A stretch of DNA of 64,000 nt. It comes from Bryopsis sp. KO-2023. Taxonomy: Eukaryota; Chlorophyta; Ulvophyceae; Bryopsidales; Bryopsidaceae. Location of the stretch: NCBI GenBank assembly GCA_030272585.1, contig BSYQ01000003.1:2356001-2420000 (forward strand). The letters run 5' to 3'. Below, in pieces: positions 2,757 through 64,000 of this stretch (position 1 is its first letter; each line of letters opens with the position of its first letter). The translations under genes and the position numbers were made by a program. The notes under the pieces were generated by a model. The model saw nothing but the letters and a program-made list of their open reading frames with translations. It made no database searches and had not been told where the DNA came from.

Positions 2757-3086
2757 AGGAAGAGAGCGCGTCACGTTTTGACGCATAACTACACTATAAC
2801 AACTCGGAATTGGACGAAACAGGCGTCTAAAAGTAAGCCGAAAACAGGGCGCTTCGTTTGAAGCTTGTTTGAGGTCAATCGGAGTTGTCAGTGGAAAGTT
2901 ACAGCCCGACAAAGTTAGGGTTTGTTTTCTGAATCGGTGGAAAGCTAGTTCTGTGAGTTCGAGGAGACCCAAGAGGTCCTCGAAGGGCTAGTAAGACGAA
3001 AAAAAAGTTGGGTTTCAGAGTTTTGGGCAAATTTTCCAGTCTTGTTGCTGTGTTGGGGTTGTGTCCAAAGGAAACCAAAATAAAAA

Positions 3087-6000
3087 GTGACCATGAGTCA
3101 AGAAGAAGAACAAGAGGTACTTGCCTTAGAAGAAGGGTCTGTTCTGGAGGAAGTCAATGAGGACTCTCCAAGTGAAAGAACAGAGGGACCACAGTCCCCT
3201 AGCACTCTCAGGTCTGAAGTGACCAAAGAAGAGAAAGATGCTAGCCTGGGCAAAACCAGAAGAGTGACTGCTGATAAACCTGAAAAGTACCAGGGCAAAG
3301 TCCCGTGGCCAGAATTCCGTTTGGAGTTAGCCATGTACTTCAGGGCAGCAAAAGTCCCAAGAGAGGAGTGGGGAGTGATTGCACCTACTTTCCTCGGATC
3401 AAAACCCCGCCGACATTTATTGGCTAGGGTACCCAAGGAAGAACTCGAGGACGGGTCTTTATCTTGGGAAAAATTCTGCCAAGTCCTGGAAGATGGCACA
3501 TTTGGAGATCTTGCCACAGATTACTCCATAAATAATGCCCTTACTTCCTGCAAGGATCATATTGACCAGAAGGTCGATACTCCTGGCTTCGTACGCTTTG
3601 TGGATGCTCACTTAGCAATGCGAAAAGAGCCAATGGACGACACTACCAAGTGTTGGATCCTTCTGAGGGGCCTCCATCCACACTTGTGCAAACAAGTGGA
3701 GACTGATACACTTGGTCGGGAATGGAGAAGCTACTCAGCCTTGCGAACGTATGTGTTGGCTAAAGCCCCGGGTCACGATGCTCGTTTTCCGTTGAAAACT
3801 ACGGACCGGAAGGCTAAAAAGAGAGGTATGGAAACTACCTTCTCAGATCCAGCCAAAGGAAGTAAGAAGAGGCATCAGCCTAAGCAACCAAGGCTTAAAG
3901 CTCAAAGTGGCACTCAGCCCTCACGAAGACCGGTGGTACGGTTGACCGAGAGTGAGAGGGAGGCTCGCAAGAAAGCTGGCTTATGCTGGTTCTGTGGGGA
4001 ACCATGGGCAAGAGGCCATAAGTGTGGTCAGTTGAAAAAGGTGAACCTCAGTTCTTGTGAAGTCCCACTTGAGTGGACACAATTGAGAGATCAGAAGAAT
4101 CTGAATCCACATTCCACAATTGACCCAATGGACATTGATTGTGATGCTTTTCTTGCACCAATCTTGACCAGAAGTCAAAAGAGTGAAGAAATGAAATCTT
4201 CTGTGGAATTTAGGGATGAGAGAGAAGATTCTCACCAAGGAATTACAAGGGCGGAGTTCCAACGTCTTGAGACACTTTCAGGCCGCGTATTTACGTTAGA
4301 TGGGTGTTCGGATGTGAACAGTGCCTTATGTAATACATTTTGCACACCTTCTGAATTTCTGGAAAGAGATTTAGGTGGACAGCATGTGTGGTTGAATCCT
4401 CCTTTCAAGGATATCAACAAATATCTCGATCACTATCTTCTCGCAAAGAAGAGATCTCCCCATGATACTTCTTGTTGCATTCTTGTTCCAGCAAGGTCTA
4501 AAGAGTTGCATCCAGCCTTGACCTCAATGAGATTGATTGCACAATACAAGAAGGGAACAGTTTTATTCACAGCCAAAAAGGGGAAAAGTCGGAAAAGACT
4601 TCCTGGCATTCCTTGGCCCGTGAATGTGTTCTATGATCCACCCGTACCCAAAATGCCAGAGGAAGCAACAGAGCTTCTCATGCAAGATAAGCTTGCAATG
4701 CATTTTGAGGGCCTCTTGAGTGGAATCCCAGCCCATTGTCTTTTGGACTCAGGAGCTAAAGGATTAGCCTTCCTATCCAAACAGTTTTGTGAACAAAATG
4801 GGATAGCTTATCGAGCTACCGTTGGATCACAGGCTGAGTTGGCAAATGGGGATAATATTGATATAATGGGAGAGACAAAGATCACACTGAAAATTCAAGG
4901 CTATCGAGAGAAGCTTGATTGTTTGGTGTTGGATCTTCTAGATCGGTTTGATATTATACTTGGTGATACGTGGTTGCAGAAGCGTAAAGCGGTTTTAGAC
5001 TTCTTTGAAAAGAAGTGCGCTTTAACGACTTCATCCCATCAACGAATATTGCTTCGTCAGGGATTATTACCCAAAGCTACGGGTAAAGATATTCCCCAAA
5101 AACAGGTTGCATCTCTACTCTCGATACCACAGGTGAAAAGGAAGTTGAAAGATACTTCAATAAAACCTATTTTGTTGGTAGTTCGTGAGATGGAAGAGAT
5201 ATCATCCCATCTGAAATTGGCGGATGAAACGAGTGAATCAGACAAAGTTCCAGAGGAGCAAATGGAAGCTCTGTTGAAGGACTTTGATGATTTGTTTATT
5301 TCTGGTTTGGCGGAATATCCTCCTGAAAGGGCAGTGGCAGCGGATATCCCTTTGGTCGAGGGAACGCGTCCGGTCAATAGACCCTTATTTAGATACACCC
5401 CTGCTGAAAGGAAAGAGATAGAGGACCAGTTGTCCGAACTCTTATCCAAAAAATTAATTCAGCCGAGTGCTAGTCCATGGGGCGCTCCGGTCCTCTTTGT
5501 TCCTAAAAAGGATGGAGGTTTCCGGATGTGCATTGACTATAGGGGTTTAAATAAAGTAACTATCAAGAATCAGTTCCCGATCCCGCGGATTGATGACCTT
5601 CTTGATCAGTTACAAGGCGCGAGATGCTTCACATCTCTTGACCTCAGAGCCGGTTATTGGCAAATGAGAGTCAAAGAGGAAGACATCCCCAAAACCGCCT
5701 TTAAAACGCCTTTTGGATTATTTGAGTACCGGGTTCTCCCAATGGGATTAACGAACGCTCCGGCAGTGTTTCAAACACTGATGAATCATGTGTTTCAAGG
5801 AATGATAGGCAAATATGTCTTGATTTACCTTGATGACATTTTGATTTACTCAAAAACACCAGAGGAACATGTGGCCCATGTACGAGCCGTGATGCAAAGA
5901 TTAAGAGAACATAAATTGTTCCTTAAGAAGTCCAAATGTGACTTTAACAAAACAGAGTTACATTACCTTGGCTTCATTGTAGGTCGCAAAGGTATCTCTG

Positions 6001-6662
6001 TAGACCCTCGAAAAACGAATAAAGTACGAGAATGGCCTCGTCCACAAGGGGTACACGATTTGAGATCGTTCCTCGGGCTTGCCAATTATTTTCGTAAGTT
6101 CGTCCAGGGTTATTCTTCTTTGGCATCACCTCTCACTGATTTGCTTAAAAAGCAACAGACATGGGATTGGACTCCAGCTTGTGAGGCCGCTTTTGAGGGG
6201 GTGAAGAAGGCATTAACAGAAGCACCTTGCTTGGCTATGCCGGATTTTACCAAACCCTTTGAAGTAATTACGGATGCTTCTAACAATGCAATAGGGGCAG
6301 TTCTCCTTCAAGAGGGACATCCCATTGCATATGAGAGTAGAAAGCTTGCCGGCCCACAACTGAATTGGTCTACAAGTGATCAAGAAATGTATGCTACAGT
6401 TTATGCACTTCAACTATGGAGATGCTACTTGGCTGATAGCAAATTCAAAGTAATCACAGACCATAGTCCAAACACATTTTTCCATTCCCAATCGACCTTG
6501 AATCGACGGCAGGTTCGCTGGTTAGCATTACTCCATGAATTCCAATTTGAATGGGAGTATAGACCGGGACGGGTAAACGTGGCTGATCCCTTGTCGCGGA
6601 TACCGTCTTGCTCACCATCTATTGGAGTACTAGCAGGCCGTTGCAGCTTCGCTTGCAAATAA
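3087..6662 (+). CDS. Element 2 polyprotein: gag, Dam-like domain, protease, RT, RNase H (3' end replaced by an insertion)
   Basis: The 1191-codon frame starts with ATG at 3087 and an acidic N terminus. A gag region ends in the chromovirus-type zinc finger CWFCGEPWARGHKC (about residues 302-315). Residues about 385-520 form a segment with VWLNPPFKDI, the catalytic NPPF motif of N6-adenine methyltransferases, and a following ILVPARS. Next come the protease (LLDSGAKGLA, about residue 552), RT (LFVPKKDGG and the catalytic IYLDDILIYS near nt 5830) and RNase H (VITDASNNA, then NVADPLSRIP near nt 6580). After about nt 6620 the frame enters foreign sequence and stops at 6660-6662. Integrase is displaced to 9241. 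Confidence 0.9.
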   Translation: MTMSQEEEQEVLALEEGSVLEEVNEDSPSERTEGPQSPSTLRSEVTKEEKDASLGKTRRVTADKPEKYQGKVPWPEFRLELAMYFRAAKVPREEWGVIAPTFLGSKPRRHLLARVPKEELEDGSLSWEKFCQVLEDGTFGDLATDYSINNALTSCKDHIDQKVDTPGFVRFVDAHLAMRKEPMDDTTKCWILLRGLHPHLCKQVETDTLGREWRSYSALRTYVLAKAPGHDARFPLKTTDRKAKKRGMETTFSDPAKGSKKRHQPKQPRLKAQSGTQPSRRPVVRLTESEREARKKAGLCWFCGEPWARGHKCGQLKKVNLSSCEVPLEWTQLRDQKNLNPHSTIDPMDIDCDAFLAPILTRSQKSEEMKSSVEFRDEREDSHQGITRAEFQRLETLSGRVFTLDGCSDVNSALCNTFCTPSEFLERDLGGQHVWLNPPFKDINKYLDHYLLAKKRSPHDTSCCILVPARSKELHPALTSMRLIAQYKKGTVLFTAKKGKSRKRLPGIPWPVNVFYDPPVPKMPEEATELLMQDKLAMHFEGLLSGIPAHCLLDSGAKGLAFLSKQFCEQNGIAYRATVGSQAELANGDNIDIMGETKITLKIQGYREKLDCLVLDLLDRFDIILGDTWLQKRKAVLDFFEKKCALTTSSHQRILLRQGLLPKATGKDIPQKQVASLLSIPQVKRKLKDTSIKPILLVVREMEEISSHLKLADETSESDKVPEEQMEALLKDFDDLFISGLAEYPPERAVAADIPLVEGTRPVNRPLFRYTPAERKEIEDQLSELLSKKLIQPSASPWGAPVLFVPKKDGGFRMCIDYRGLNKVTIKNQFPIPRIDDLLDQLQGARCFTSLDLRAGYWQMRVKEEDIPKTAFKTPFGLFEYRVLPMGLTNAPAVFQTLMNHVFQGMIGKYVLIYLDDILIYSKTPEEHVAHVRAVMQRLREHKLFLKKSKCDFNKTELHYLGFIVGRKGISVDPRKTNKVREWPRPQGVHDLRSFLGLANYFRKFVQGYSSLASPLTDLLKKQQTWDWTPACEAAFEGVKKALTEAPCLAMPDFTKPFEVITDASNNAIGAVLLQEGHPIAYESRKLAGPQLNWSTSDQEMYATVYALQLWRCYLADSKFKVITDHSPNTFFHSQSTLNRRQVRWLALLHEFQFEWEYRPGRVNVADPLSRIPSCSPSIGVLAGRCSFACK
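4240..4650 (+). other. DNA N6-adenine methyltransferase-like (Dam-like) domain inside the element 2 polyprotein
   Basis: A domain sits between the gag zinc finger and the protease. It reads FTLDGCSDVNSALCN, then FLERDLGGQHVWLNPPF, then SCCILVPARSKELHP. A D-x-C start, an NPPF catalytic loop and a hydrophobic strand match the layout of phage-type Dam methylases. From memory, NPPF-type segments also occur in other algal retroelements. The FxGxG-like SAM-binding loop is not obvious, so activity is uncertain. Confidence 0.6.
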
Positions 6663-22818: not shown

Positions 22819-23075
22819 TGTTCCACACGGTCTGTTTAGATGACTGATTATCGGGATTAGATTGTTGTGAGGAAGTTAGACGATCGGAAGGAGGGAAGGG
22901 TTAGATCGATGTGAGGAAGTTAGGTTACTGGAATGGATGTGAAACGGCGCTTGACAGAAACTGGGGAAGGTATTTATCGGGAAGGAAACTCGGAACAATC
23001 TAACAGTGTAAAAGACTCAAACGATCCACAGCTCGTTTCACGCAAGGATTGGGAAAACATGAGTGCAACTGTACA
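22819..23075 (+). repeat. 5' LTR of element 3
   Basis: 257 bp, from TGTTCCACACGG to GCAACTGTACA. It matches 27,502-27,758 base for base as read. It contains the ORF start codon at 22,933 and a repeated GTGAGGAAGTTAG word (22,868 and 22,911). Confidence 0.95.
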
Positions 23076-26000
23076 TGGTTTCGGAGCCGAAGACGTTTCT
23101 GGGCGCAACGCGACCAGAACGACAAAAAGAGTATACCTCTCACCTCTCTCGCTCGCTTGGCTCACCATTTTCTTTTCGACCACCTGCATACACACAGTGG
23201 ATGGAGGCATTTTCGCAACCGCTCAAGATAAAGAACTGGCAGCGTTGGAAAAGGAAAAAGTGAAGCTCAGAGCAAAAGTTATGTCCCTCTCAGAGCAACT
23301 CCGCGATGAGCGACGACTACGCGAACACCCACCTTATTGGTACATTCGCGAACGTGGTGATCAACCACCACCCGACGAACCTCCACCCAAGCTGGCACCC
23401 AACTGGGACACCCCCCGCGCAAAGGACCCTCTCGTCAAAACGGCGGGGTGGTTCTCTTTTTTCCGACTACCTACAGGAAAAGGCAAACAAACAGAGACAT
23501 GCGCAAAATGGGATACCTGTCTCACTCTCTTTACCAGCGCTTTTTTCCAGGCCACTGCTTCCCTGTCCACCGCCGTGAGGAGTTTCTTCAGTGATCCTTT
23601 CGACGTTTTTGGCGCCATGCCCAAACGAGCCCGCCATTGGTTCTCGTCCCGCCTGGATATGATGTCGCAGCTTTTTGGTGCGTTCCTGGCGTTCTTATTG
23701 GTGAACGTCCTCGCTTTCGTTTACCTCAAGCTCTCGAGTGTCATCAAGACGATCAAGGGGTCGCTTCGGACTTTGGGGAAGCTGCCGGTCGTCACACTGG
23801 CGACCACCACTGGCGAATGGATTTTGCGCTGGATGTGGTGCACCGTCGTTTCAACGCCCCCGACGACGGAATTCCAGGCACAGCTCAAAGGGCTTCAGGA
23901 CACGGTGGCTGCGCTTCAGGCGGACAGGGATCAAACGTGTGGCTACTGTGGGTGGAAGGGCCACTCGGAAGCAAACTGTAGGAAGAAAAAGCAAAACCAG
24001 AAGATTACTAACACTGTAAAGACCAATTCGCAGTATGCAGCAGCTTCCACACCACCATCTCTTCTCCACACCCCCATCACTATTCACAAACAACCACTCA
24101 AATCCTGCCTGATCGATACCGGATCTCAGGCGTCCCTGCTCCCTCTCTCCATCGCCAAACGGTATGGGATTCCGTACAGCTCCACCCTCCAAACGCCCCA
24201 GCGCATTGAAGGCTTCAACGGCTCCTCTAGTGTCGTCAATGGGGAAGCTCTCCTGCCTACCGCTATCGGAGTATCGGATGACACGCAGCTCGTCACATGG
24301 CTCGTCACCAATGCGACGACCACTCCAATTCTGGGCATCGACGGGATCAAGGCGCTCAACATCTCGGTGAATGCCAACCTTGGCGAAATCTGTCAAACCA
24401 CCACAGGAGCCACAATCCAATGTCATGTGGTAACATCTACTAACCCCACCATTGCACCTCAACAAGGCACTGTCCACCTTACCCAGCTCTGGCCTGTACA
24501 CCAGGGAACTGGCCTCTCCAGTAAAAAAACCTGCATTCAGCTGCAAGCAGGAAAACCATATATCCTGGAGCCCCAAAAGTGGACTCGACTCTACTTACCA
24601 TATAGAATGGACGTCGCCGGCCAGGCCACTATCACGCCTGCACTCCACCGCCCAGGCCTCGTCACCGGCGCATTGACGACTAAGGCGGGCCATTTCCGCG
24701 TCGACGTCTGGAACTCGACGGATCGCGTCCACCAACTCACAGCCACCACCCCCCTCATCAATATCCACGGCGCACAGCACCATGTCGTCAACCGCCTGGA
24801 CCGCCCCAAAGTCCACGCCGTCACCCTGCCACAAAAAACAAACCTCACAAGCCAGGACATTGCTAACGACATCATGGCACGTTTTCCAGACGTCGGCGAC
24901 CTCAGCACACACCCTATCAACGAAAAAATGAAAGCTCTCCAAATCAGACCGGACGAAATGGAGTGGACCAAACCAGGCGACGCAGGGTTACGCACGGAGT
25001 ATTCTGTCGACAAGGTCGTCGACAGAAACGCAGTCACGAAACAACTGGAGCTCTACGTCGACCGTGGGTATCTTTCTCTATCACCTTCCTCTGAAGCAGC
25101 CTTTTTCAACCCATTACTGCCCATCGCCAAAGACGACGGAACCTATCGTTTCACTAACGACTTTCGACGACTCAATGGCTACTTCAAAAAACTGGGCATG
25201 GTTTTTTCCGACCCATGGCGCACTATCTGGAAAGTGAAGGCCGAGTGGAAGGTCTATGCCAAAATAGACCTCAAGGACGCTTTTTTTGGACTTGCCATCT
25301 CACCTGAGCTGTCGCCCCTATTCTCCTTTACATGGCAGGGGCGGCGATACAAGTGGAACCGCCTCCCCCAAGGGTGGTGCTGGAGCCCAACCCTGTTCTC
25401 GGACAGGATCACCAGCATCCTCGGCCATTTGGACTGCGTAATCTACGCAGACGATATCTTGCTGGGCGCCCCCACTGCGGCCGAACTACACACGAAACTA
25501 AACGAACTATTTTCGGTTCTCCAGGACTACGGCTTAAAAGTGAACTACCAAAAAGTGACCTGGCTCGCAGATACAGTGGAGTTCCTCGGTTACCACCTCC
25601 ACGACGGCCAGTGGTCCCACAAGCCCTTTCTCACGGACAAACTCAATGAACTCGGCCCTGTCAACGACACCACTGACCTCGCCAGGATCATTGGTATTTT
25701 TTCTTACTGCAGGAAAACAATACCCAAGCTCGAACATCACCTGGACACCCTGAGAAAACTCCTGGCCGCCTATTCAGCTGCCCCCGATGTCGCACAATGG
25801 CAACACGACGTCCAGCAAGCTCTCCACACTTTCATCTCCTACGCCGTAAACCACCAAACGGATCTAGCCCTACCAGGCCTCACAGCTCGCACCTTCACAC
25901 TCGAAACAGACTGGTCAGGCGAACACGCAGGTTACATCCTCTTCGCCCACGACAACAAGGACCAAACCCACCTGATCGATTATGGCAGTACTCGGCTCAC

Positions 26001-27321
26001 AGAACCGACGTCCTCGTTCCTTGGCGAATTGAAGGCCGTCAAATGGGCCCTCCAAAAAACGTCGGCGTATCGAGGAAACACACCGACCACCCTACGCACT
26101 GACAACCAAGCACTCGCCGAACAAATGCGAACAGGCGGGCTTGGAAAAAACGACAAAAGGGTGGGCCGCCTGTGGGCCTGGATACTCGGTAACGAAACCC
26201 ACACCACCTTCGAATTTTTGCCGGGGTCCACTAACGTTGCTGCTGACCTCCTCAGTCGGCCGAACCAAACGGACAAAAAACAACCAACACCAGCCGTCAA
26301 CACCACGACCACCCTAACACCTCATCAGCAAGCTTGGAACACCCATCGCAAGGAGCACTGGGGTGTAGAGAAGACACACCTCCAAGCCAAACAGGACGGT
26401 CACACTATTCCCAAAAACGTCATTTCTGAAGTCGTCGCCACCTGCCCAACCTGCGCCATTTTTCGTCCCCTCACCCCACGTCGTCCCTGGGGCCAACTGC
26501 CCTACGGAGATTCCCCTGGCACTGTGCTGCATCTGGATGTTATCGGGCCCCTCACGCCCGCTACCACAGGCGAAAAGTTCATCACCTGCATCGTGGACAG
26601 CTGCACTCGACGCGGACAAGCCACGGCCTCCAGGACCGTGACGTCCGCCACAATCACGGCCGCATTGGACCGCTGGGCCGGAAACCACGGACACCCTGTG
26701 CTCCTCATCCTCGATGGGGCCGGCTACAACAGTTCGAACGACATGCGAACCTGGAGCAAAGACAACGGCGTGGAGCTCATTTACACTCCCCCACACAAAC
26801 ACAACTCCAATGGGTTGGTGGAACGTTTCCACCGCACCCTCGAGGACCGCATCAAAAAACTTTTGCACAACAGCACCCACGACTGGCCTCACCATATTGA
26901 TGCTGCAGTCCGTGCCATCAACACCACGCCGCACAGCACCACCGGCGCCTCCCCCCAGCAGCTTTGGACCAGCTCTGCGGCCACACAATGGACTGCCCGG
27001 GAACGAGCAAACAAGCAACGCGCTTACCGCAACAGCCTACGCAAAGTCGTCCCTAAGGAACTCCACGCAGGGGACCTCGTATGGCACTATGACGCCGTCC
27101 AAGCCGCCAAGCGAGAAGACAAGCTACAGCCCCACTGGCGTGGCCCCCTCCGGCTCGTCGAACAACTCACGGGCTCCCTCTGGCGAACAGCTGAACTCAC
27201 ACCACGCACGGGCCCTGGCCGCCGCCCTCGAGGCATCTACCATCAAGATCACCTCCAGAAATGCCATGGACGTCAACCTTGGCATGCGGATGACGATTTC
27301 GACTGGCCTCCCCACATGTAA
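22933..27321 (+). CDS. Element 3 Gag-Pol polyprotein
   Basis: 1462 codons. Gag: the N-terminal 47 residues are LTR-encoded. A hydrophobic segment follows (LSLAWLTIFFSTTCIHTV, about 57-75), then a coiled coil, a second membrane-like segment (LFGAFLAFLLVNVLAFVYL, about 242-262) and a zinc knuckle CGYCGWKGHSEANC (about 335). Protease: IDTGSQASLLPL (about 394). RT: TNDFRRLNGY, AKIDLKDAFFG, NRLPQGWCWSP and catalytic YADDILLG (about 837). RNase H: LETDWSGEHAG, FLGELKAVKWAL, LRTDNQAL. Integrase: H/H/C/C (HRKEHWG to CPTCAIF), then D in LHLDVIGP, D in LDGAGYNS and E in GLVERFHRTL with D-35-E spacing. Alternative starts are ATG 23,059 (also in the LTR) or ATG 23,281. Confidence 0.93.
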   Translation: MDVKRRLTETGEGIYREGNSEQSNSVKDSNDPQLVSRKDWENMSATVHGFGAEDVSGRNATRTTKRVYLSPLSLAWLTIFFSTTCIHTVDGGIFATAQDKELAALEKEKVKLRAKVMSLSEQLRDERRLREHPPYWYIRERGDQPPPDEPPPKLAPNWDTPRAKDPLVKTAGWFSFFRLPTGKGKQTETCAKWDTCLTLFTSAFFQATASLSTAVRSFFSDPFDVFGAMPKRARHWFSSRLDMMSQLFGAFLAFLLVNVLAFVYLKLSSVIKTIKGSLRTLGKLPVVTLATTTGEWILRWMWCTVVSTPPTTEFQAQLKGLQDTVAALQADRDQTCGYCGWKGHSEANCRKKKQNQKITNTVKTNSQYAAASTPPSLLHTPITIHKQPLKSCLIDTGSQASLLPLSIAKRYGIPYSSTLQTPQRIEGFNGSSSVVNGEALLPTAIGVSDDTQLVTWLVTNATTTPILGIDGIKALNISVNANLGEICQTTTGATIQCHVVTSTNPTIAPQQGTVHLTQLWPVHQGTGLSSKKTCIQLQAGKPYILEPQKWTRLYLPYRMDVAGQATITPALHRPGLVTGALTTKAGHFRVDVWNSTDRVHQLTATTPLINIHGAQHHVVNRLDRPKVHAVTLPQKTNLTSQDIANDIMARFPDVGDLSTHPINEKMKALQIRPDEMEWTKPGDAGLRTEYSVDKVVDRNAVTKQLELYVDRGYLSLSPSSEAAFFNPLLPIAKDDGTYRFTNDFRRLNGYFKKLGMVFSDPWRTIWKVKAEWKVYAKIDLKDAFFGLAISPELSPLFSFTWQGRRYKWNRLPQGWCWSPTLFSDRITSILGHLDCVIYADDILLGAPTAAELHTKLNELFSVLQDYGLKVNYQKVTWLADTVEFLGYHLHDGQWSHKPFLTDKLNELGPVNDTTDLARIIGIFSYCRKTIPKLEHHLDTLRKLLAAYSAAPDVAQWQHDVQQALHTFISYAVNHQTDLALPGLTARTFTLETDWSGEHAGYILFAHDNKDQTHLIDYGSTRLTEPTSSFLGELKAVKWALQKTSAYRGNTPTTLRTDNQALAEQMRTGGLGKNDKRVGRLWAWILGNETHTTFEFLPGSTNVAADLLSRPNQTDKKQPTPAVNTTTTLTPHQQAWNTHRKEHWGVEKTHLQAKQDGHTIPKNVISEVVATCPTCAIFRPLTPRRPWGQLPYGDSPGTVLHLDVIGPLTPATTGEKFITCIVDSCTRRGQATASRTVTSATITAALDRWAGNHGHPVLLILDGAGYNSSNDMRTWSKDNGVELIYTPPHKHNSNGLVERFHRTLEDRIKKLLHNSTHDWPHHIDAAVRAINTTPHSTTGASPQQLWTSSAATQWTARERANKQRAYRNSLRKVVPKELHAGDLVWHYDAVQAAKREDKLQPHWRGPLRLVEQLTGSLWRTAELTPRTGPGRRPRGIYHQDHLQKCHGRQPWHADDDFDWPPHM
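23076..23091 (+). other. Primer-binding site of element 3
   Basis: TGGTTTCGGAGCCGAA follows the LTR's terminal CA with no gap. It pairs with a tRNA 3' end TTCGGCTCCGAAACCA. The first 12 bases equal those of element 2. It lies within the coding frame. Confidence 0.7.
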
Positions 27322-54338: not shown

Positions 54339-55385
54339 ATGGGCTCGAAACCTTTGAAAAAACAGCCTCTTCCAGAAAATGCCTTACTGTACAAGGGACC
54401 CATTCACTATGTGGCAACAGCAGAACAAGCCGAAGATTGGTGCAGGCACTTGGAAAAGAAAGTGAAGGTGGTTGGGCTGGGGGCGGAATGGAGGGCTGAT
54501 ATGAAAAGGGGGCAGGATCACCCGGTCTCCATGATCCAGATGTGTTTCAGGACCGAGAAACTGCTACGAGTGGTTTTATTTCATGTGAAATATTCTGGGA
54601 TCCCAAAGAAACTACGAGACGTTTTGACGGTGAGCACGAGGTCTCTCACACTTCTCTTTCTCTTTTTCTGGCACACTTTTTCTGGCACACTTTTTCTGGC
54701 ACACTTTTTCTGGCACACTTTTTGTGGCACACTTTTTTTGACTCACTTTTTTCACTCTTCCTCTGGATCGCTTTGTTTTCACTCTTTCTCTGGCACTCTT
54801 TTTCTTCACTCTTTTTCTGGCGCATTTTTTCTTCACTCTTTTTTCTAGCTCTCTTTTTCTGGCATACTTTTTTTCCTCTTTTCCTACCACACGAACGTTG
54901 GGGCCTTTATCACGGATGATCCACAGAGTTGCTCATAATTTTTACTCAACATTAAAAGGGTCTTTTTTTTTTTCTCTCCCCAGAGCGAAACCATCTTGAA
55001 AGTCGGTGCCAGTCTGCTGTACGATAAGGCGAAACTGAAGGCCCATTCCGCACTGGAGATGAAAAACGTTTTCGACCTGTCTTGGAGCGAAAGCAAGGTT
55101 CTACGTGGAGGCTCCATGTTCAGAAAACCGTTGAACATCAAGGAGCTGGTCCCCCGGGTGATGGACAAAGTCATGGTGCGAGAGGGCAAATGGTTGAGAA
55201 GCGATTGGGCCAGGAGACCGTTGAAAAGGGAGCAAATGGATTTCGCCGCTTTGGACGCGTACGCTCCTTTCGCCGTGTATGAGCGAATGAAAGAAATTCA
55301 CCTGAAAAGGCTGGCCCGCCAGGAAGGGGACTCCGATGAACTCGGCCCCATCGATACCAAGGAGCTAGATTTTCCGTGGGGGTGA
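54339..55385 (+). CDS. 3'-5' exonuclease-domain (DEDD, WRN-exo-like) protein, probably impaired
   Basis: Exon 1 (54,339-54,629) and exon 2 (54,984-55,385) join in phase: 97 + 133 residues. The frame is open back to an acceptor at 54,292, so an N-terminal exon is possible. The fold matches RNase D/WRN exonucleases: VVGLGAEW for Exo I, PVSMIQMCF, SETILKVGASLLYD for Exo II, NVFDLSWSE, and FAALDAYAPFAVYERM for Exo III. Exo I should read DxE but has GxE. The Exo III Tyr (YxxxD) is Phe. The Asp of Exo II and the last Asp remain. It lacks the first metal-binding Asp, so it may bind nucleic acid without cutting. Confidence 0.82.
54660..54880 (+). repeat. Degenerate tandem repeat in the exonuclease gene intron
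   Basis: Units of about 14 bases, TTTTTCTGGCACAC, repeated with drift to TTTTTCTTCACTC. It fills most of the intron and is still pyrimidine-rich, so it may serve as an extended splice tract. Confidence 0.85.
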
Positions 55386-55899: not shown

Positions 55900-58800
55900 A
55901 TGGAGACCTCACCGAGCATGGGTTTGTGGATTTGGGGCGGAAAGTTGAAGGTGTTTCCGGGTGCGCTTGGCAATGAAACCACCTCGACGGCTTTGAACCG
56001 CGATACGGGGGAGGAAGCTGTCGCATGGCAGCTTCGCGTGTATGAGCCTGACACGGACGCAGCCCGGAAAATTCTGAAGGAGTTCAAAGGACAAGTGGAC
56101 CGGTTGATTGGGTTGAATCACAGGAACGTTCTCAAGGTGGGAATTTCGAACTTCAACAGAACAGGGGGTGATTTTTTTGCACTCTCGTCGTGGCTCAAGG
56201 AAAAGGCAAGCGGCGCGAAAGGCGATCCCCCCGCTCCCCCGGAAAAGACACAGAAAATAAGTGAAGGAGATCAACGCTGGGAAGGACCTTCAACTGCTTT
56301 GGAAATGCTCCCAGAAATTACTCTCTGTGGTGAACGTTGCTCCAGAAGCAAGACATTCTTCCATCATTTTTCAGCCCAATACCAAGGTTTCGAACTAGCA
56401 AGTTCATTTATTGAACAGTTACAGGCCAGAAGAAAATGGACTAAAGAAGAATATGATCCAGCACCAGACAGCCTCACTCCATTCGTTTTTGATTTGTTGA
56501 ATCGAGCCGATTTTTCATGTAGATGAGGGATTTTTTTCTGACAAAAGCAGGATGCGTTGAATGTTTTTCTGTGTGTTATTTTGCTAAAATTGTGTGTGTG
56601 TTTTGCAGTTTTTTTATTGCCATGTGGAGGAGTGGACTTCCTTGACTCTGTTGTGTGATATTTACGGAAAGAAGCTGCACCATGTAATGCAGCGTTATGC
56701 TGTACCTCTTCCATTAGCGAAGAAATTTCTGTCGCAAGTGAGTCCTTTTTTTATTTGTTTACTAAACATAGATCTAAAATATATTTATATCTGTATATTC
56801 ATGGATACATAAATATTGATATCTTTATAGATATGTATATATGAATGAATGAATGAATGTTTAATTTACATTAGGCAAACTTGCTGAAGGAAGGCCGTCC
56901 ACAACGAGGTCATTTAGTCCCAGGCCCTCGAGAAAAAATCCGACTCAAAATAGGCAGTTCTAGAAAACCCTCCACAGTTGCACCCCAGATGTAAAAATAC
57001 AAATTCAAAAAAGCCTCAACGTGCAGCATTCCCATTTGTCCTGTTAAGAGAGCCAAATACAAGTCCAGCTATGGTCGCATGTCTTTCGGAAAAGCCTTGA
57101 TTTCAAGTTTTGCCTGTTTATACGTTTTGTGTTTTTTTCCAACCACACCCCCTTCTTCCAGATATTAAATGGCCTCGAATTCCTCCTCTCCCATGGTATC
57201 TCCCTGGTAGTCAGTCTCAGGAACGTCTGTCTGACGGACAACGGGACCGTCAAGCTCCGGGTGGTTCTGCGAGACCTCGAACATCAGAAATCGTTGAGGG
57301 AGTGCATTGCCAGTCTGGAGCCATTGGGTCGAACCTTATTTTCCTCCCACACTCCGACAGCAGATGATTTCGCAAAGGCTTGTCAGGTCGCCACGAACTT
57401 CCAGCAGTTGAGGAAATTCACAACACCGACACCACTAACACCACCACCACCATCGCCACCACCACCACCACCAGAAGCCATTCAAGAGGATCCGGCCTCC
57501 ACCACACCCCCGCCAAGAGAAACTCAAGCATCTTTGCAACAGCGTGTAGAGAAGAGGGCACCTGGTGGTGAGAATATCGCTGAGGAGGGGACCAAAAGAC
57601 AGCGTGGACTTGCTGGAGAGAGGCTGGTGGTGGGCATATCGAGGTCCAAAAAGAGTTCAATGAGACGAGATTTCGTGTTGTGGCGGAAGGAGGTCTTATC
57701 CACCAAGACCGCCAAAGAGGTCAGTTTCTTGATGGGATATATATGTATATGTGAATGAATGAAGGTTTAATTTACATTAGGCCAACTTGCCCAACGAAGG
57801 CCGTCATAACGAGGTGATCTAGCCCAAGCCCTTGAGAAAAATCCAGCTGAATATAGCCAGTTCTAGAAAACCCTCCATAGTTGCATCTAAGATAAAGTAA
57901 ACCTAGTGGAGACCCCTTGTGATATATATATATATATATATATATAATCCTCCTTCGTTTGATTTTCCCATTGACAACACCACATTTGCTCCAGGTTGAG
58001 GAAGTCGAACTGTTGGATCCACAGGGGACATCCACGATGGAGTGTGTCGATCTGATGTCAGACGACGGAAGCCCATCCAAAGACGGACCCAGCAAAACTC
58101 CACGAAAAGGAAATGCCCAACATCCCAGGACCAATGATGTTGCTGCCCAAAATGGGAGGGAGGGTGGCAGTGATCGTATCGAGGGGTTGGATCCACACCA
58201 GGATGGAATCGCTGTGGTTAGCACGGATGCGGCGGCTGCTGGAAATATCAGCAGTCCAAGTAGAGACAGCGACGCTCTTGATGGGGCAGGGAAATTGAAC
58301 TTGTTTGACGCAGGTGAGATCCATGTCTGTTTGTTTGTTTGGGTTTTTTCCCCCTCCTTTTTGTCCAATGTATTTCTTTTGGGGAAGTCTTGCCCCTATA
58401 GGGGTGTAGGAACAACCCAACATCTCGTCACAACGATCTGATCTGATCGATCCGATCCGATCTGGTCCTCTCTGTGTGTTGTAAAATCGATCTCCATCAG
58501 TGAATCAGGGTTTCTTTTAGAAACAGCTTGATTGTGTGTGTGTGAGTGTTTTTTTTTTGCTTTTTAAGGTGGTCCCTCCACTCCCATGTCTTCCATGTTG
58601 ACCAGCGAGAATGCCGATTCTGCAAGCAAGCTGCCAACTGCTCGGAAGAGCTCAGGGCCTACTCCGGTACTGGGAAAAAGGGATCAACTGAAGAGGAAAG
58701 CTGCCATCGAGGGGGTCAAGCGCCGTCGACTGAGCTTGAGGGAAAATGCCAGAAGAACTATGGAGGTCCCCAAAAATGCACCGCAATGCATCGACGTTCC

Positions 58801-60324
58801 CTCCCAAATTTTGAAGCGATGCCACAGGTGAGTGTGTCGAGATTTGGTTTTGTTCCTTTTTCCACCTGGATCCTGACCAGGCAAGTTTTACTTATTTTTT
58901 TATATTTTTTTCGGGGTGGAGGGGGGGGGGGGGAAATGTCGAAACGCAGTTTTGGGTTTCATATGTAGTTTCGTTTTTCTATAAGGGTGGGTGGGTTATA
59001 TCCCCCGCTTAAGTGACCTAATAATATTTTTTTTTCTATTTTTTGGGGGGCGTAATTTTCTATTGTTATTTTCTTTTAATCTCAAACACCACAGGGTTCT
59101 GTATTTTTGTCTTCTCAACTCCCAAGTGTTGTTCGCCTTTCCTCCATCCCACACACCCAGTTCCCTAATTGCTTTCGGTTTTTTTTTTTGTTCTTTTTCC
59201 AGGCCTGAGCCCAATGTATATGTTGAAGAGCATTGTTACGACTTCACGTACCTTCCATCCCTGTTGCCCTCGAGTCTTTCCGCTTTGGCAACGGACGTTT
59301 TTAAACAAAAAACCGGGGATTACCGAAAGGTGCTGCGATTCGGAACGCAGTTCAAGGTTTTTGTGGGCAAGCATGGAATACATACAGGAAAGGGACGGGG
59401 TGTGGTGGCTTTGGAGCCCATTTTGAAGAACCGATGCGTTTTCGAATATACCGGTAAGTTATCTGCTTTTTTTCTTCTGCCATTTCTGCAAACATCGTAG
59501 GATTTTTTTCTGCACTTTTGATTCACTTTCCTGTAAATCAGAAATAAGTCCTGCCATCAAAAAATAAAACCAATAAAATCAAACAAAGCTGATTTCCACC
59601 ATCCTGAAGATGCCAGGGCTAAATCACCTCGTTGTGGTCGGCCTTCGTTGGGCAAGTTCGCCTAATGTCGATTAAACCTTCATTCAAACCTCCAGATGCC
59701 CAAAAAATAAAAACCATGTTCTGCTGTTGAATACGCGAATGCCATACAATATGAGATCATTTGATATGATTCCATCGCACCCCCAAGTCTTGCTCCGTTT
59801 TTGACTCTCGATGCGTGAATCGGTCAGGTGCTTTGCTTTCTGAGGAGGAGGCCACGGGGGCGGGCGAACAGTATTTTTTCGAAATCGCGGACCATCAACA
59901 GGATGACGACTACAAGGAGTTGGCAACATATCGGCTCCCCAACGGTCAAACGCCCACGATCATCGATGCCACAAACAAAGGCAATGCTTCCCGCTTCCTG
60001 AACCACAGCTGCTTGCCGAACTTGGAGGTGTTGAAGGATGTGGAAAAGGTGGAAACGATCTTCAAGGAGGCGGGGGTGTTTCGAATCATCATGCGGGCGG
60101 TGCGGGATATTTTGAAGGGGGAGGAGCTGACGATCGATTACCATCCGAATGACACGAGGCAGACTTTGGAGGAATGTGCGGCGAGGAGGAAGGTCCCGTG
60201 TTGCTGTGGGGCGGAAGATAAGTGCAAGAAGTGGATTGTGCTTTCTGGGGAAGTGGATGATGAGGGGGAGGATGAGGAGGAAGGAAAAGAGGAAGGAAAA
60301 GGGGAGGGAGAAGGAGATCAGTGA
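55900..60324 (+). CDS. WNK/NRBP-like pseudokinase fused to a SET methyltransferase domain
   Basis: Seven exons close exactly in phase: 55,900-56,136, 56,609-56,737, 57,162-57,719, 57,995-58,313, 58,569-58,827, 59,203-59,453 and 59,828-60,324; 749 residues. Residues about 15-160 form a kinase-like fold: NRDTGEEAVAWQLRVYE (Lys replaced), LIGLNHRNVLKFFYCH, LTLLCDIYGKKLHHVM, LNGLEFLLSHGI. The HRD segment reads SLVVSLRN and the DFG segment reads KLRVVL, so catalysis is lost. A Pro-rich and basic linker follows (about 210-500, RKAAIEGVKRRRLSLRE). The SET domain has GKGRGVVALEP (about 563), RFLNHSCLPNLEV (about 642), EELTIDYH (about 685) and a post-SET CCCGAEDKC (about 709). The tail is acidic. It is probably a nuclear lysine methyltransferase; the substrate is unknown. 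Confidence 0.88.
56842..57000 (+). repeat. Dispersed intronic repeat, copy 1
   Basis: Starts GAATGAATGAATGTTTAATT and continues ACATTAGGC, GAAGGCCGTCC, ACAACGAGGTCAT, CAGTTCTAGAAAACCCTCCA. Lies in intron 2 of the pseudokinase-SET gene. Confidence 0.9.
57754..57900 (+). repeat. Dispersed intronic repeat, copy 2
   Basis: Same order of words as copy 1: GAATGAATGAAGGTTTAATT, ACATTAGGCCAACTTGCCC, ACGAAGGCCGTC, ACGAGGTGATCTAGCCC, CAGTTCTAGAAAACCCTCCA. Lies in intron 3. An (AT)n run follows at about 57,922-57,946. Confidence 0.9.
59598..59693 (-). repeat. Dispersed intronic repeat, copy 3 (inverted, partial)
   Basis: The reverse complement reads GAATGAAGGTTTAATC, ACATTAGGCGAACTTGCCC, AACGAAGGCCG, ACAACGAGGTGATTTAGCCC. 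It lacks the right part of copies 1 and 2. Lies in intron 6 of the same gene. Confidence 0.88.
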
Positions 60325-60703
60325 TGTGGTGGGGATGGGTGTTTTTTTTTTCCGTTCGTCGATCTACTCTTTGCTTCATTTTGGTTTTGCTTTTGCTTTC
60401 ATTGGCTGTTTATTTGTGTATATTGATGTTTTGGGGGGGAGGGGGGAACACCAGCTGTCAGACTTTTAGCGGTCATCGGTCGCTGGCAGTGCCTGGTTGA
60501 AACTTTTTGATGTGCGGGAGAGGACCTCGATGGTCAGGGAAAACTGGGGAGTTCGGGTAGAATATCGATTTTGCTGTAATTATGAGCATATTGGACAGAA
60601 CGCTGAAAACAGATGCATGATTTCTTTCCGAGTTGGTGGATGGTTACATTCGATAAGCCAACGCAATGTGCAAATGACCATGCGATCTGCTAAAAGACTT
60701 CAA
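60325..60703. other. Gap between convergent genes
   Basis: About 380 bases between the stops of the pseudokinase-SET gene (plus) and the methyltransferase gene (minus). Holds both 3' untranslated regions. No gene seen. Confidence 0.5.
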
Positions 60704-62804
60704 TCAATTTCTTTGCTTCAAAAAGGCCACCGTTTCGACATGAGAGGTCTGGGGGAAGAAATCTGCAGGGACGATTTTTTGGACATCGTAGCTTCCTTGG
60801 ACCCCACACAACACCTGCAAGTCTCGAGCCAGAGTTGCAGGGTTGCAGCTGACATACACTATGCGGTCTGGCCCAGCTTCCAGCAGGCAATCCAGCACAG
60901 CTGCATCACATCCTTTCCTGGGTGGATCTATGATGACCACCTCTGGGTTGAAACCTCCGCCCCTGATCAAGCGTGGCAGCACAGTTTCGACTCTCCCCAC
61001 CTGCAGGGGAGACGGAAGATCGACGTATTTTGCTTTAATGGACACACCCATCCCCCAGCATTCAACGCTTCACTCTTTTCCCCCAGTCTCAAGGTGGTTG
61101 CAATGACAATCCTTCGATTGTTAGGGAGCATCAGCATTCCGGCTCACCTCGAAATTAACGTTGTTGATGGAATTCTCCCTTGCGTTAGTAGTGGCTTGTT
61201 CGATCGATTCCTCCATGATCTCCACCCCCAAAACCTGTCCTTCTGGAAGCCGTGATGCCAGTGGCAGAGCGATCGTCCCGATTCCACAATAAGCATCCAG
61301 CAAAACCTCATCTCCCCTCAAATCCAGCTCCTCTATTATCATCCCGACCACCCTCTCTGCCTGCACAGTGTTGACTTGGAAAAATGTGGTCGATGCCAAT
61401 CTCAGGTCGAGCTCCATGAATTTCTCGACGAGAAATGGCTGTCCCCTCACCACAAAGGTTTCTGATCCAAAGATTTCTTTCGTTTTCCTGGAGTTTATGT
61501 TGATGCACACACCGACTATGTTGGGGTGGTCTGCCATCCACGATTGTGCCAGCTGTTTGATTCCTGGTAACCTTCGTTTCGTTGAAACGATTGTCAGGAG
61601 AATCTGCCCAGTGTGGTGGCCGATCCTCAAACTCAAGTGACGGATATCTCCCTTGTGCTTCTTGCCGTCGTATATCGGCCAGCCAGACTCCTGCACATGC
61701 ATTCCCAGATTGATTTTCCATCATGGTGCTGAACAATTGACCATCCTATTTCCCCTCAAGGATTCCCTCCAAGATGCCAAGTCAGAATATGCCAGGAGTG
61801 GGCAGCTGGGACAGGATGTCCCTCTGAGCATTCCGAGAAAGCAGCTATGTTGCACAGCCATAGCGACCTACTCAAGTGTAAACAGGTCCAGATGCGTCGC
61901 CATTAAAACAATCTCCCCCAACAAGACCCCCCTCCCCCCCTGCAACAATTCTTCCACTCCATGCGAATCAGACAACCCCTGGTCAGCACATTAGGATCCT
62001 TTTCAATGGATCTACCCTCACCAGCATATCACGTTTCACTGTCGCAAGCACAGGGTCCAGTCTGACATCCTGCACAGGGCAATGCTCGATGTCCACCACA
62101 TCATGGGTCCCTTTCTCATAGTAGCCCATGCACGCTCCGTTCAATGCTGAGCGGGAGAATGGGTAGCTGACCTTGTTGCGATAACCGAAAGGTTCGGATG
62201 GAAGAGCAGTCTTGACATCGACATTCGACAATTTTCCGATTCGGGAGATAGCTTGCACCACCTAGAATATACCACCCTTCCCCTGATGTTGAATATATCT
62301 GTGTCCAAGATATGTTGGCATGATGTGCCATCAATGCGTCTGTCATCAATGCATCTCAGTGAAAGAACGTATTGTGCGATTGCTCCGTTTGATCACCTGG
62401 TTTCGCTTGATTTCGAGCTGGAGGCTGTAATCCACGCACTGCCACTGACAGCCTCCACATTTATCGGCAACGGGGCAGGGAGGGACGACGCGATTGGATG
62501 ACGCCTCCAACACCTTCTCCAACCTTCCCTGCGCGAGATTTTTTTTCACTTGAATCAACCTCACCGCCAGGCGGTCTCCTGGAACGCCATTCCGCACGAA
62601 AACAACGCGGCCGAGAAATCTCCCCACAGCATCGCCAGAACTTCCTAGGTCGGAGACATGCAAATTGATGGATGCCCCTTTTTGCCACGATCCCTCTCCG
62701 CACATGATCAGATGCATGAACGCGCGCCACCATCGAGTGAACGCAACTGTGTGGATTTGTGGCAAACCCACAATGTCATCCATGGCCAATAAGGTGCTCA
62801 TCAC
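60704..62804 (-). CDS. RNA (uracil-5-)-methyltransferase, TrmA/RlmD family
   Basis: Exons 62,804-62,397, 62,261-62,022, 61,690-61,148 and 61,000-60,704 join in phase (about 495 residues). A short extra exon near 61,978 is possible. The N-terminal part is a TRAM-like domain (GRVVFVRNGVPGDRLAVRLI) and an iron-sulfur cysteine motif (CPVADKCGGCQWQ). The catalytic domain has the SAM loop LLDAYCGIGTIALPLA, the IIDPPRKGCD motif, the nucleophile Cys in IVYVSCNPATLARD, and the C-terminal FPQTSHVETVAFL with the base Glu. This matches bacterial RlmD (RumA) and plant/algal homologues that make 5-methyluridine in rRNA or tRNA. A possible acceptor before ATG 62,802 means an upstream targeting exon is not excluded. 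Confidence 0.9.
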
Positions 62805-64000
62805 CTGTCAGCCGCGCTCTATATCATCGATGCAAAACAACACGAAACAAAAACTACTACGAAATCCAAAAAAGAAAGACAGAGTGAGCCCCAAAGACGA
62901 AGCCAAACAGCCAAATCGACAGAGACCCCAAAAGGATAAGAAACGTCTACCCAGCCTAAGCCGCCATGGTGTATTTTGGTATACATGACGTACACCAAAA
63001 TACTACCCCAAACCCCAAGGCCGAGACGGGGTAAACCAGAACTCTTGGGCGACCTCCGAAACAAACCCGAGAGGGGGAACATGATAAAGAACCACCTCCC
63101 TCTATAGAATGATCAGATTTCCTGGAATCAGGGAGTTCGTGCGTAGCCAGTCAAGAGTTCAGTGGTGTGATGGTGGTTGGGAAAACAAGCCAACATAACA
63201 CAGAATTCGTGTGGGGTGAACATTTAACGAGGTAGTAAGCCAGAGAGTCCTTCCTGTGCACCAGTGTTTTTAATTGCAAGTAAAAGACGTCCTCGTTTTG
63301 TTTTCCCCCGGAAAGTTCCCAGTACTGCTCAGAACTCTTCCCCGACTTCTTCCTCCTCTTCACTATTGAATTCACAACCATGCCCATAACCTCAACTCCA
63401 AAAGGAGTGTGGTGGAACTGTGCGAATGGAATCACTCGCTGCCAGCTAGCAGGGAGTAGTAGGGTGTGGGATCCTCGGGTTTTCACGGCCACATCTCGTC
63501 AAGCCATATTCCCGTCGTGGGGCTGCGTTTTGTCCGCAGGTTTTTGCTAGGTAAAACGAGCGATACATCATAACCCAGCTGCTGCTGCCCCTCCACCAAC
63601 ACCACCCCCGCACACAAACGCATCAATCAGTCACACTGATCAATGGCAATCTTCGTGTCAGCCTGCAGGTTCCATCCAGCGAATCAGATCAGTTTGTGAA
63701 CCCCAGAGTTGACGTTCCACAAAAGAAAGAAGTCCAGCGAATTACCCAATTCTCCCGATGAACACGTTTGTTGCGACTGGGAGGGATGGATCAGAGGCCG
63801 GAGCGGTGCGTGTCCAATGTGAAGCAGTGGACTGCGGAGCCTTGTTGGAGGTGACAAAATCTGGCGGCGCCGCCAGGTGTCCGATCGTTTCTATCGAAAA
63901 AGGAGCAACAAAAAAGACCCAATCAAATGTTCGTGGCGAACAAAACGAAAAAGTAACGCCATCCGATTTTCCAAAGTGCCTCTGCTGTCTGTGGAGGCTT
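62805..64000. other. Window end: no confident gene apart from a weak minus-strand ORF
   Basis: Apart from a 113-codon ORF at 63,151-63,492 I see no convincing coding. A TGGTGTATTTTGGTATAC...GTACACCAAAATAC inverted repeat occurs at about 62,970-63,003. Confidence 0.4.
63151..63492 (-). CDS. Hypothetical small basic protein (weak)
   Basis: A 113-codon ORF with a reasonable start (GAGATGGCCG). It is basic around residues 40-55 (VVNSIVKRRKKSGKSS). It is not similar to anything I can name. It may be one exon of a longer gene or chance. Confidence 0.25.
   Translation of the reverse strand: MAVKTRGSHTLLLPASWQRVIPFAQFHHTPFGVEVMGMVVNSIVKRRKKSGKSSEQYWELSGGKQNEDVFYLQLKTLVHRKDSLAYYLVKCSPHTNSVLCWLVFPTTITPLNS

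Follow-up and report, generated by a model that had tools for sequence, protein, structure and literature searches.

A gene of seven exons at positions 55900 to 60324 of the forward strand, in a 64,000-nucleotide stretch from the giant-celled, siphonous green alga Bryopsis sp. KO-2023 (contig BSYQ01000003.1, positions 2,356,001 to 2,420,000; the window, in whose coordinates we give all positions unless stated otherwise), has a gene model in which a dead, kinase-derived part precedes an intact-looking SET domain. A preliminary description made from the sequence had proposed this arrangement, and our analysis supports it. We give an even chance to the explanation that the product is a SET lysine methyltransferase equipped with a docking module derived from a kinase, truncated and catalytically dead, and that it is encoded by one nuclear gene that arose by a lineage-specific fusion. 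The truncated N-terminus would be joined to the enzyme by a polar linker of ~290 residues carrying a nuclear import signal, and the SET domain would methylate a histone or another lysine. The kinase-derived module would no longer transfer phosphate and could dock to other proteins and so deliver the methyltransferase to a partner or substrate. This docking role, which the preliminary description had suggested along with an allosteric one, is favoured because the enzyme looks intact, the similarity to a kinase N-lobe is kept and the phosphotransfer residues are lost, and because pseudokinases often work through binding.

The SET half is encoded by the last two exons. Exon 6 (59203..59453, +; residues 501-584) carries a PEPNVY block and the start of the domain with GKGRG and EYTG, and exon 7 (59828..60324, +; residues 585-749 and the stop) holds the rest of it (RFLNHSCLPN, with NHSCLPN at 643, and ELTIDY at 684), followed by the post-SET CCCGAEDKC at 709 and an acidic tail, so that the GxG, NHSCxPN, DY-type and post-SET cysteine motifs named in the preliminary description are all found. 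The Pfam SET profile (PF00856) matches residues 565-689 over positions 1-104 of 105 (E 1.8e-20; 73.8 bits, cut-off 22.4). The post-SET zinc cysteines are C646 together with C709, C711 and C717, and the columns that are invariant in a four-row alignment include Y583, N643, H644, C646, Y689, C709, C711 and C717. Searches of a protein collection, whose reach needs shared five-residue words, yielded three SET relatives from unnamed or MMETSP sources: P0004 came from the search with the SET part, and P0002 and P0003 from the whole-protein search, which scored the 7990 candidates sharing most words. P0004 has a related SET domain with 30-32% identity to the Bryopsis protein, and both P0004 and P0002 share its EPNV block before SET. 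Among PDB sequences the SET part is closest to SUV39H2 (E 9.7e-13), followed by NSD2 and KMT2C/2D. With SUV39-type enzymes (SUV39H2, PDB 6p0r/2r3a) the Bryopsis protein has the common SET core and the post-SET cysteines in common, whereas it differs from them in three respects. The pre-SET region, a nine-cysteine zinc cluster in SUV39 enzymes, has no counterpart, as residues 501-565 hold only C512; a Pfam scan of the whole protein gave no chromodomain match at E<=1; and the position two residues ahead of the catalytic tyrosine, usually Phe or Tyr, holds Ile (I687), as in P0004; P0002 has Phe there and P0003 has Tyr. The SET domain is probably active as an enzyme. The only NCBIfam matches, AnkI/LegAS4 in the SET region (E 3.9e-8) and, for the N-terminus, MAD6 kinase (E 0.0022), are far under their cut-offs and would reflect general domain similarity.

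The N-terminus is spread over three exons. Exon 1 (55900..56136, +; residues 1-79) encodes the kinase-like N-lobe as far as alpha-C; exon 2 (56609..56737, +; residues 80-122) corresponds in the kinase alignment to beta-4/5, the hinge region, alpha-D and the start of alpha-E; and exon 3 (57162..57719, +; residues 123-308) encodes the remainder of alpha-E, a degenerate catalytic-loop region, two predicted helices of low confidence and the start of a proline-rich linker. The Pfam Pkinase profile (PF00069) matches residues 29-136, thus starting in exon 1, with E 7.7e-5 and 22.6 bits. In a phmmer search of PDB chains with the N-terminus, for which our figures refer to the best 60 of 205 rows, the CDK2 variant 5oo1 leads with E 2.7e-6 over residues 31-154, and other CDK2 chains follow at ~5e-5 to 3e-4, mostly near 6.5e-5. 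With an independent kinase profile derived from 31 sequences of viral contigs, residues 1-212 rank first of 20,001: they score 20.9 bits, and the highest-scoring of 20,000 shuffles reaches 9.0. Shuffled or reversed versions of residues 32-208 gave no Pkinase match (0/8 shuffles, 0/1 reversal), and residues 123-208 alone gave no kinase match. As far as sequence comparison can tell, the N-terminus is kinase-derived, with the similarity limited to residues ~29-154.

Several points weigh against a methyltransferase with a kinase-derived docking module. The Pkinase score lies below the Pfam curated cut-off of 31.7 bits. The PDB match to GCN2 (chain residues 335-443, which by the boundaries we assume are its pseudokinase domain) has E 1.5e-5 for the whole chain, the best single stretch reaching an independent E-value of only 0.0013. 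A structure prediction made without kinase rows was poor throughout, SET included (mean predicted local distance difference test score, pLDDT, 32.9; zero residues at >=70). A prediction with 31 kinases in its alignment, in which block means of >=60 occurred only at residues 41-90 and 101-140 and in a lone linker helix at 451-470, is no independent test and would be an unfair one of the kinase fold, because kinases sat in that alignment. Among the scored candidates there was no fusion-bearing relative. Finally, a fold without most of its C-lobe may be unstable or bind nothing. The low Pkinase score and the poor model without kinase rows, together with the failure of residues 123-208 alone to match anything convincing, would also suit a resemblance due to chance or to a convergent alpha/beta pattern and not to kinase ancestry. 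We consider this very improbable, since the three sequence tests concur (7.7e-5 with Pfam, 2.7e-6 with PDB, and rank 1 of 20,001) and neither the shuffles nor the reversal matched Pkinase.

A pattern scan for VAIK, GxGxxG, HRD, DFG and [AS]PE found none of them anywhere in the 749-residue protein. In the alignment with the CDK2 variant, W43 (or Q44 if shifted by one) occupies the position of the beta-3 lysine, Q65 that of the alpha-C glutamate and S136-L137-V138 that of HRD, and the catalytic-loop asparagine is retained as N143; by extrapolation just beyond the alignment end at residue 154, V156-V157-L158 would stand at the DFG site. The absence of the VAIK lysine, HRD and DFG by pattern, and the different residues at the aligned positions (that of DFG being extrapolated), bear out the earlier proposal of a catalytically dead kinase part. 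A complete kinase fold, as assumed there, was not confirmed: the Pkinase alignment spans only profile positions 16-120 of 263, and residues 123-208 on their own lack a kinase match. Nor was the assignment to a WNK/NRBP-like type supported, as the sequence leaders are CDK2 variants and GCN2 and there is no WNK among the best 60 of 205 PDB rows; WNK entries do turn up in a fold comparison, where they rank level with Plk4, Aurora, CRAF, JAK2 and others. Only ~50 residues are left from the DFG position to the proline-rich linker. Because the motifs are gone, so little sequence follows the DFG position and residues 123-208 have no kinase match, the N-terminus is best read as a truncated pseudokinase consisting of the N-lobe with alpha-D/alpha-E, not as a whole dead kinase. 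Residues ~168-208 were also considered as a remnant of late C-lobe helices, a reading that we rejected as the searches with residues 123-208 gave it no support.

When spliced, the seven exons give 2250 nt and 749 residues with zero internal stops and a stop codon at 60322-60324, and the deposited hypothetical protein BSKO_03318 of Bryopsis sp. KO-2023, retrieved from the protein collection, is identical to the product at 749/749 residues. The single frame of the preliminary description is thereby confirmed, and the model agrees with the annotation of other workers. The frame is open without phase error, as had been stressed, but as evidence this is weak at the exon 1-2 junction, where 23 GT/GC donors and 3 acceptors can be combined in 69 ways that leave it open; the chosen join carries weight because the deposited model uses the same one. 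A codon test was trained on 15 open reading frames (ORFs) of >=200 aa from the window, 10 of which were scanned with Pfam, 5 of those 10 matching retroelement domains; one training ORF (60470-61252, +) is antisense to the downstream neighbour gene. The frame of the model is top of the three forward frames in 7/7 exons (~1 in 2200 by chance) and best of all six frames in 6/7, the exception being exon 2. The lowest score belongs to exon 5 (0.048), and since the reverse frames of introns reach up to 0.141 and overlap with exons, absolute codon scores do not separate exon from intron.

Between the two halves, residues 213-500 are polar, with a hydrophobic fraction of 0.19 against 0.37 in residues 1-212. 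Exon 4 (57995..58313, +; residues 309-414) encodes polar linker with VDLMSDD at 326, which we take to resemble a SUMO-interacting motif, and exon 5 (58569..58827, +; residues 415-500) encodes linker with the basic KRDQLKRKAAIEGVKRR at 451, presumably similar to a bipartite nuclear signal. That the linker exons have no Pfam match is one of the points that would fit the second rival explanation, wrongly merged neighbours, under which exons 1-3 form a short kinase-like gene and a SET gene has its start codon in exon 4 or exon 5, both of which contain ATG codons. The frame of exon 3, if unspliced, hits a stop at 57756-57758 in intron 3; an intronic TGTAA, a poly(A) signal in some green algae, lies at 58480; the codon score of exon 5 is weak; and the SET relatives show no kinase match. 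Two separate genes are nevertheless unlikely, as the deposited annotation has a single gene, exons 3-4 and 4-5 are joined in frame at GT-AG sites, and TGTAA occurs 5 times in the 5.1 kb scanned, against 5.0 expected by chance with equal base frequencies.

The distribution of the two halves differs. Residues 1-212 match only their own protein at E<=1 among 923 scored candidates of the protein collection. In the 91 Mb assembly of 28 contigs, with the window on contig C3, they recover the gene's own three exon matches and two weak places (E 0.036 and 0.15), the former in what appears by eye to be an ordinary-looking kinase frame. Pkinase matches at E<=10 were found in 0/3 of P0002, P0003 and P0004; the protein-collection searches, dependent on shared five-residue words, listed no Caulerpa or Ostreobium protein; and viral contigs searched with P0001, P0004 and a Bryopsis kinase exon yielded no relatives. 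The simplest reading of these searches is that the fusion is confined to Bryopsis or close relatives. An N-terminus conserved in no relative among those candidates would also be expected of a decaying passenger, which is the main rival to the docking module: the kinase-derived stretch would be a leftover of gene fusion or exon capture, translated without function, and only the SET domain would matter. The loss of the catalytic motifs and of most of the C-lobe agrees with this, and gene pieces do move in the Bryopsis genome, where ~200 bp of exon 7 recur in two duplicated blocks on contig C2. On the other side, the frame has stayed open through three exons, its share of hydrophobic residues is that of a domain (0.37, compared with 0.19 for the linker) and, among forward frames, the codon scores speak for that of the model, so that we regard a decaying passenger as a serious possibility, though a doubtful one.

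The preliminary description held that no kinase-fold/SET fusion had been described, a claim that a paper of 2010 shows to be wrong. In that work on the Phytophthora infestans kinome, PITG_14137 is reported as an inactive CDK-like kinase that carries a histone-lysine methyltransferase at its N-terminus, having orthologs in P. ramorum and P. sojae and none in other species, including H. arabidopsidis (PMC3019232). Compared by description only, both cases have an inactive kinase and a histone-lysine N-methyltransferase in one protein, CDK-like there and with a CDK2 variant as the best PDB match here (best 60 of 205). The differences are that the methyltransferase is N-terminal in PITG_14137 whereas the Bryopsis order is kinase-like then SET, that the oomycete kinase is not described as truncated in the paper's section on CMGC kinases, and that one organism is an oomycete and the other a green alga. 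Because the order is reversed and 3/3 SET relatives have no kinase match, the Bryopsis fusion likely arose separately from the Phytophthora one. The category is already in print, and the order and the lineage are what differ here; this direct precedent, in water moulds, was the only one among the papers listed by our literature searches, and further descriptions may exist. Tribbles (TRIB3) and the GCN2 pseudokinase domain resemble the Bryopsis N-terminus in their kinase ancestry with catalytic residues lost, but the Bryopsis module stands in cis with SET and is without most of the C-lobe. TRIB3 is reported to interfere in trans with the MLL complex, and this case of TRIB3 and MLL SET is a trans precedent for the docking module. 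If the Bryopsis module is functional, a pseudokinase steering a methyltransferase in cis becomes testable, and with the Phytophthora case the pairing would look recurrent; if it is decaying, a kinase fragment has been accidentally retained ahead of a chromatin enzyme. We put forward as speculative and rather unlikely the further idea that the N-lobe became an allosteric or recruitment module acting in cis, and that a siphonous green alga and the oomycetes each arrived on their own at the combination of dead kinase and histone methyltransferase, as a recurrent coupling of signalling to chromatin. The Bryopsis pairing is unusual and testable, yet precedented and unproven.

The piece of SET exon 7 that recurs elsewhere spans 59926-60125, and its copies lie at C2:1743414-1743620 (+) and C2:1279369-1279575 (-) (L022, L023). 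They are 91% identical to it and carry a frameshift caused by 7 additional bases. Each lies within one of two large duplicated blocks, which share 95.7-97.2% identity where they align. A 1.4 kb segment from the block has only two occurrences in the genome, and no terminal inverted repeats were seen by eye at the block edges. This looks like a gene fragment captured by a duplicated, possibly mobile, segment. An interspersed element of ~140 bp is present in intron 2 (56840-56995) and intron 3 (57752-57893) of the gene, and intron 6 contains its inverted core motif with 2 mismatches (59652-59676, -). Genome-wide, 40 of 364 candidate places were scored, all with 81-100% identity and including the two copies of the window, and the element looks like a short non-autonomous transposable element.

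The upstream neighbour (54939-55385, +) codes for the C-terminal portion of a 3'-5' exonuclease (DNA_pol_A_exo1, E 7.7e-9), closely preceded by a 14-bp tandem repeat at 54662-54872 with 15.4 copies of the consensus CTTTTTCTGGCACA. Downstream, a RumA/TrmA-type uracil-5 RNA methyltransferase-like gene extends, as delimited by eye, over several open pieces at 60704-62807 (-), of which the scanned piece 61121-61720 matches tRNA_U5-meth_tr with E 3e-10. Elsewhere in the window, a 1465-codon frame at 22924-27318 (+), with matches to aspartyl protease, reverse transcriptase, RNase H and integrase-like domains, several of them near or below cut-offs, is a predicted long ORF of a retroelement of the long terminal repeat type. 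The ORF at 3084-6659 (+) is that of a retrotransposon with protease, reverse transcriptase and RNase H, and it carries a Dam-like DNA adenine methyltransferase domain before the protease (4080-4700). Pfam Dam matches this piece with E 9.7e-7 and 29.1 bits, the cut-off being 28.1, and the whole ORF scores 25.5 bits, which is under the cut-off. Its own-genome search gave 150 scored matches of 186 candidates, with at least 28 full-length copies at 99-100% identity, that of the window included. Because of these near-identical copies, 16/28 of which lie in frames of 1657-1702 codons, recent activity of this retrotransposon is suggested.

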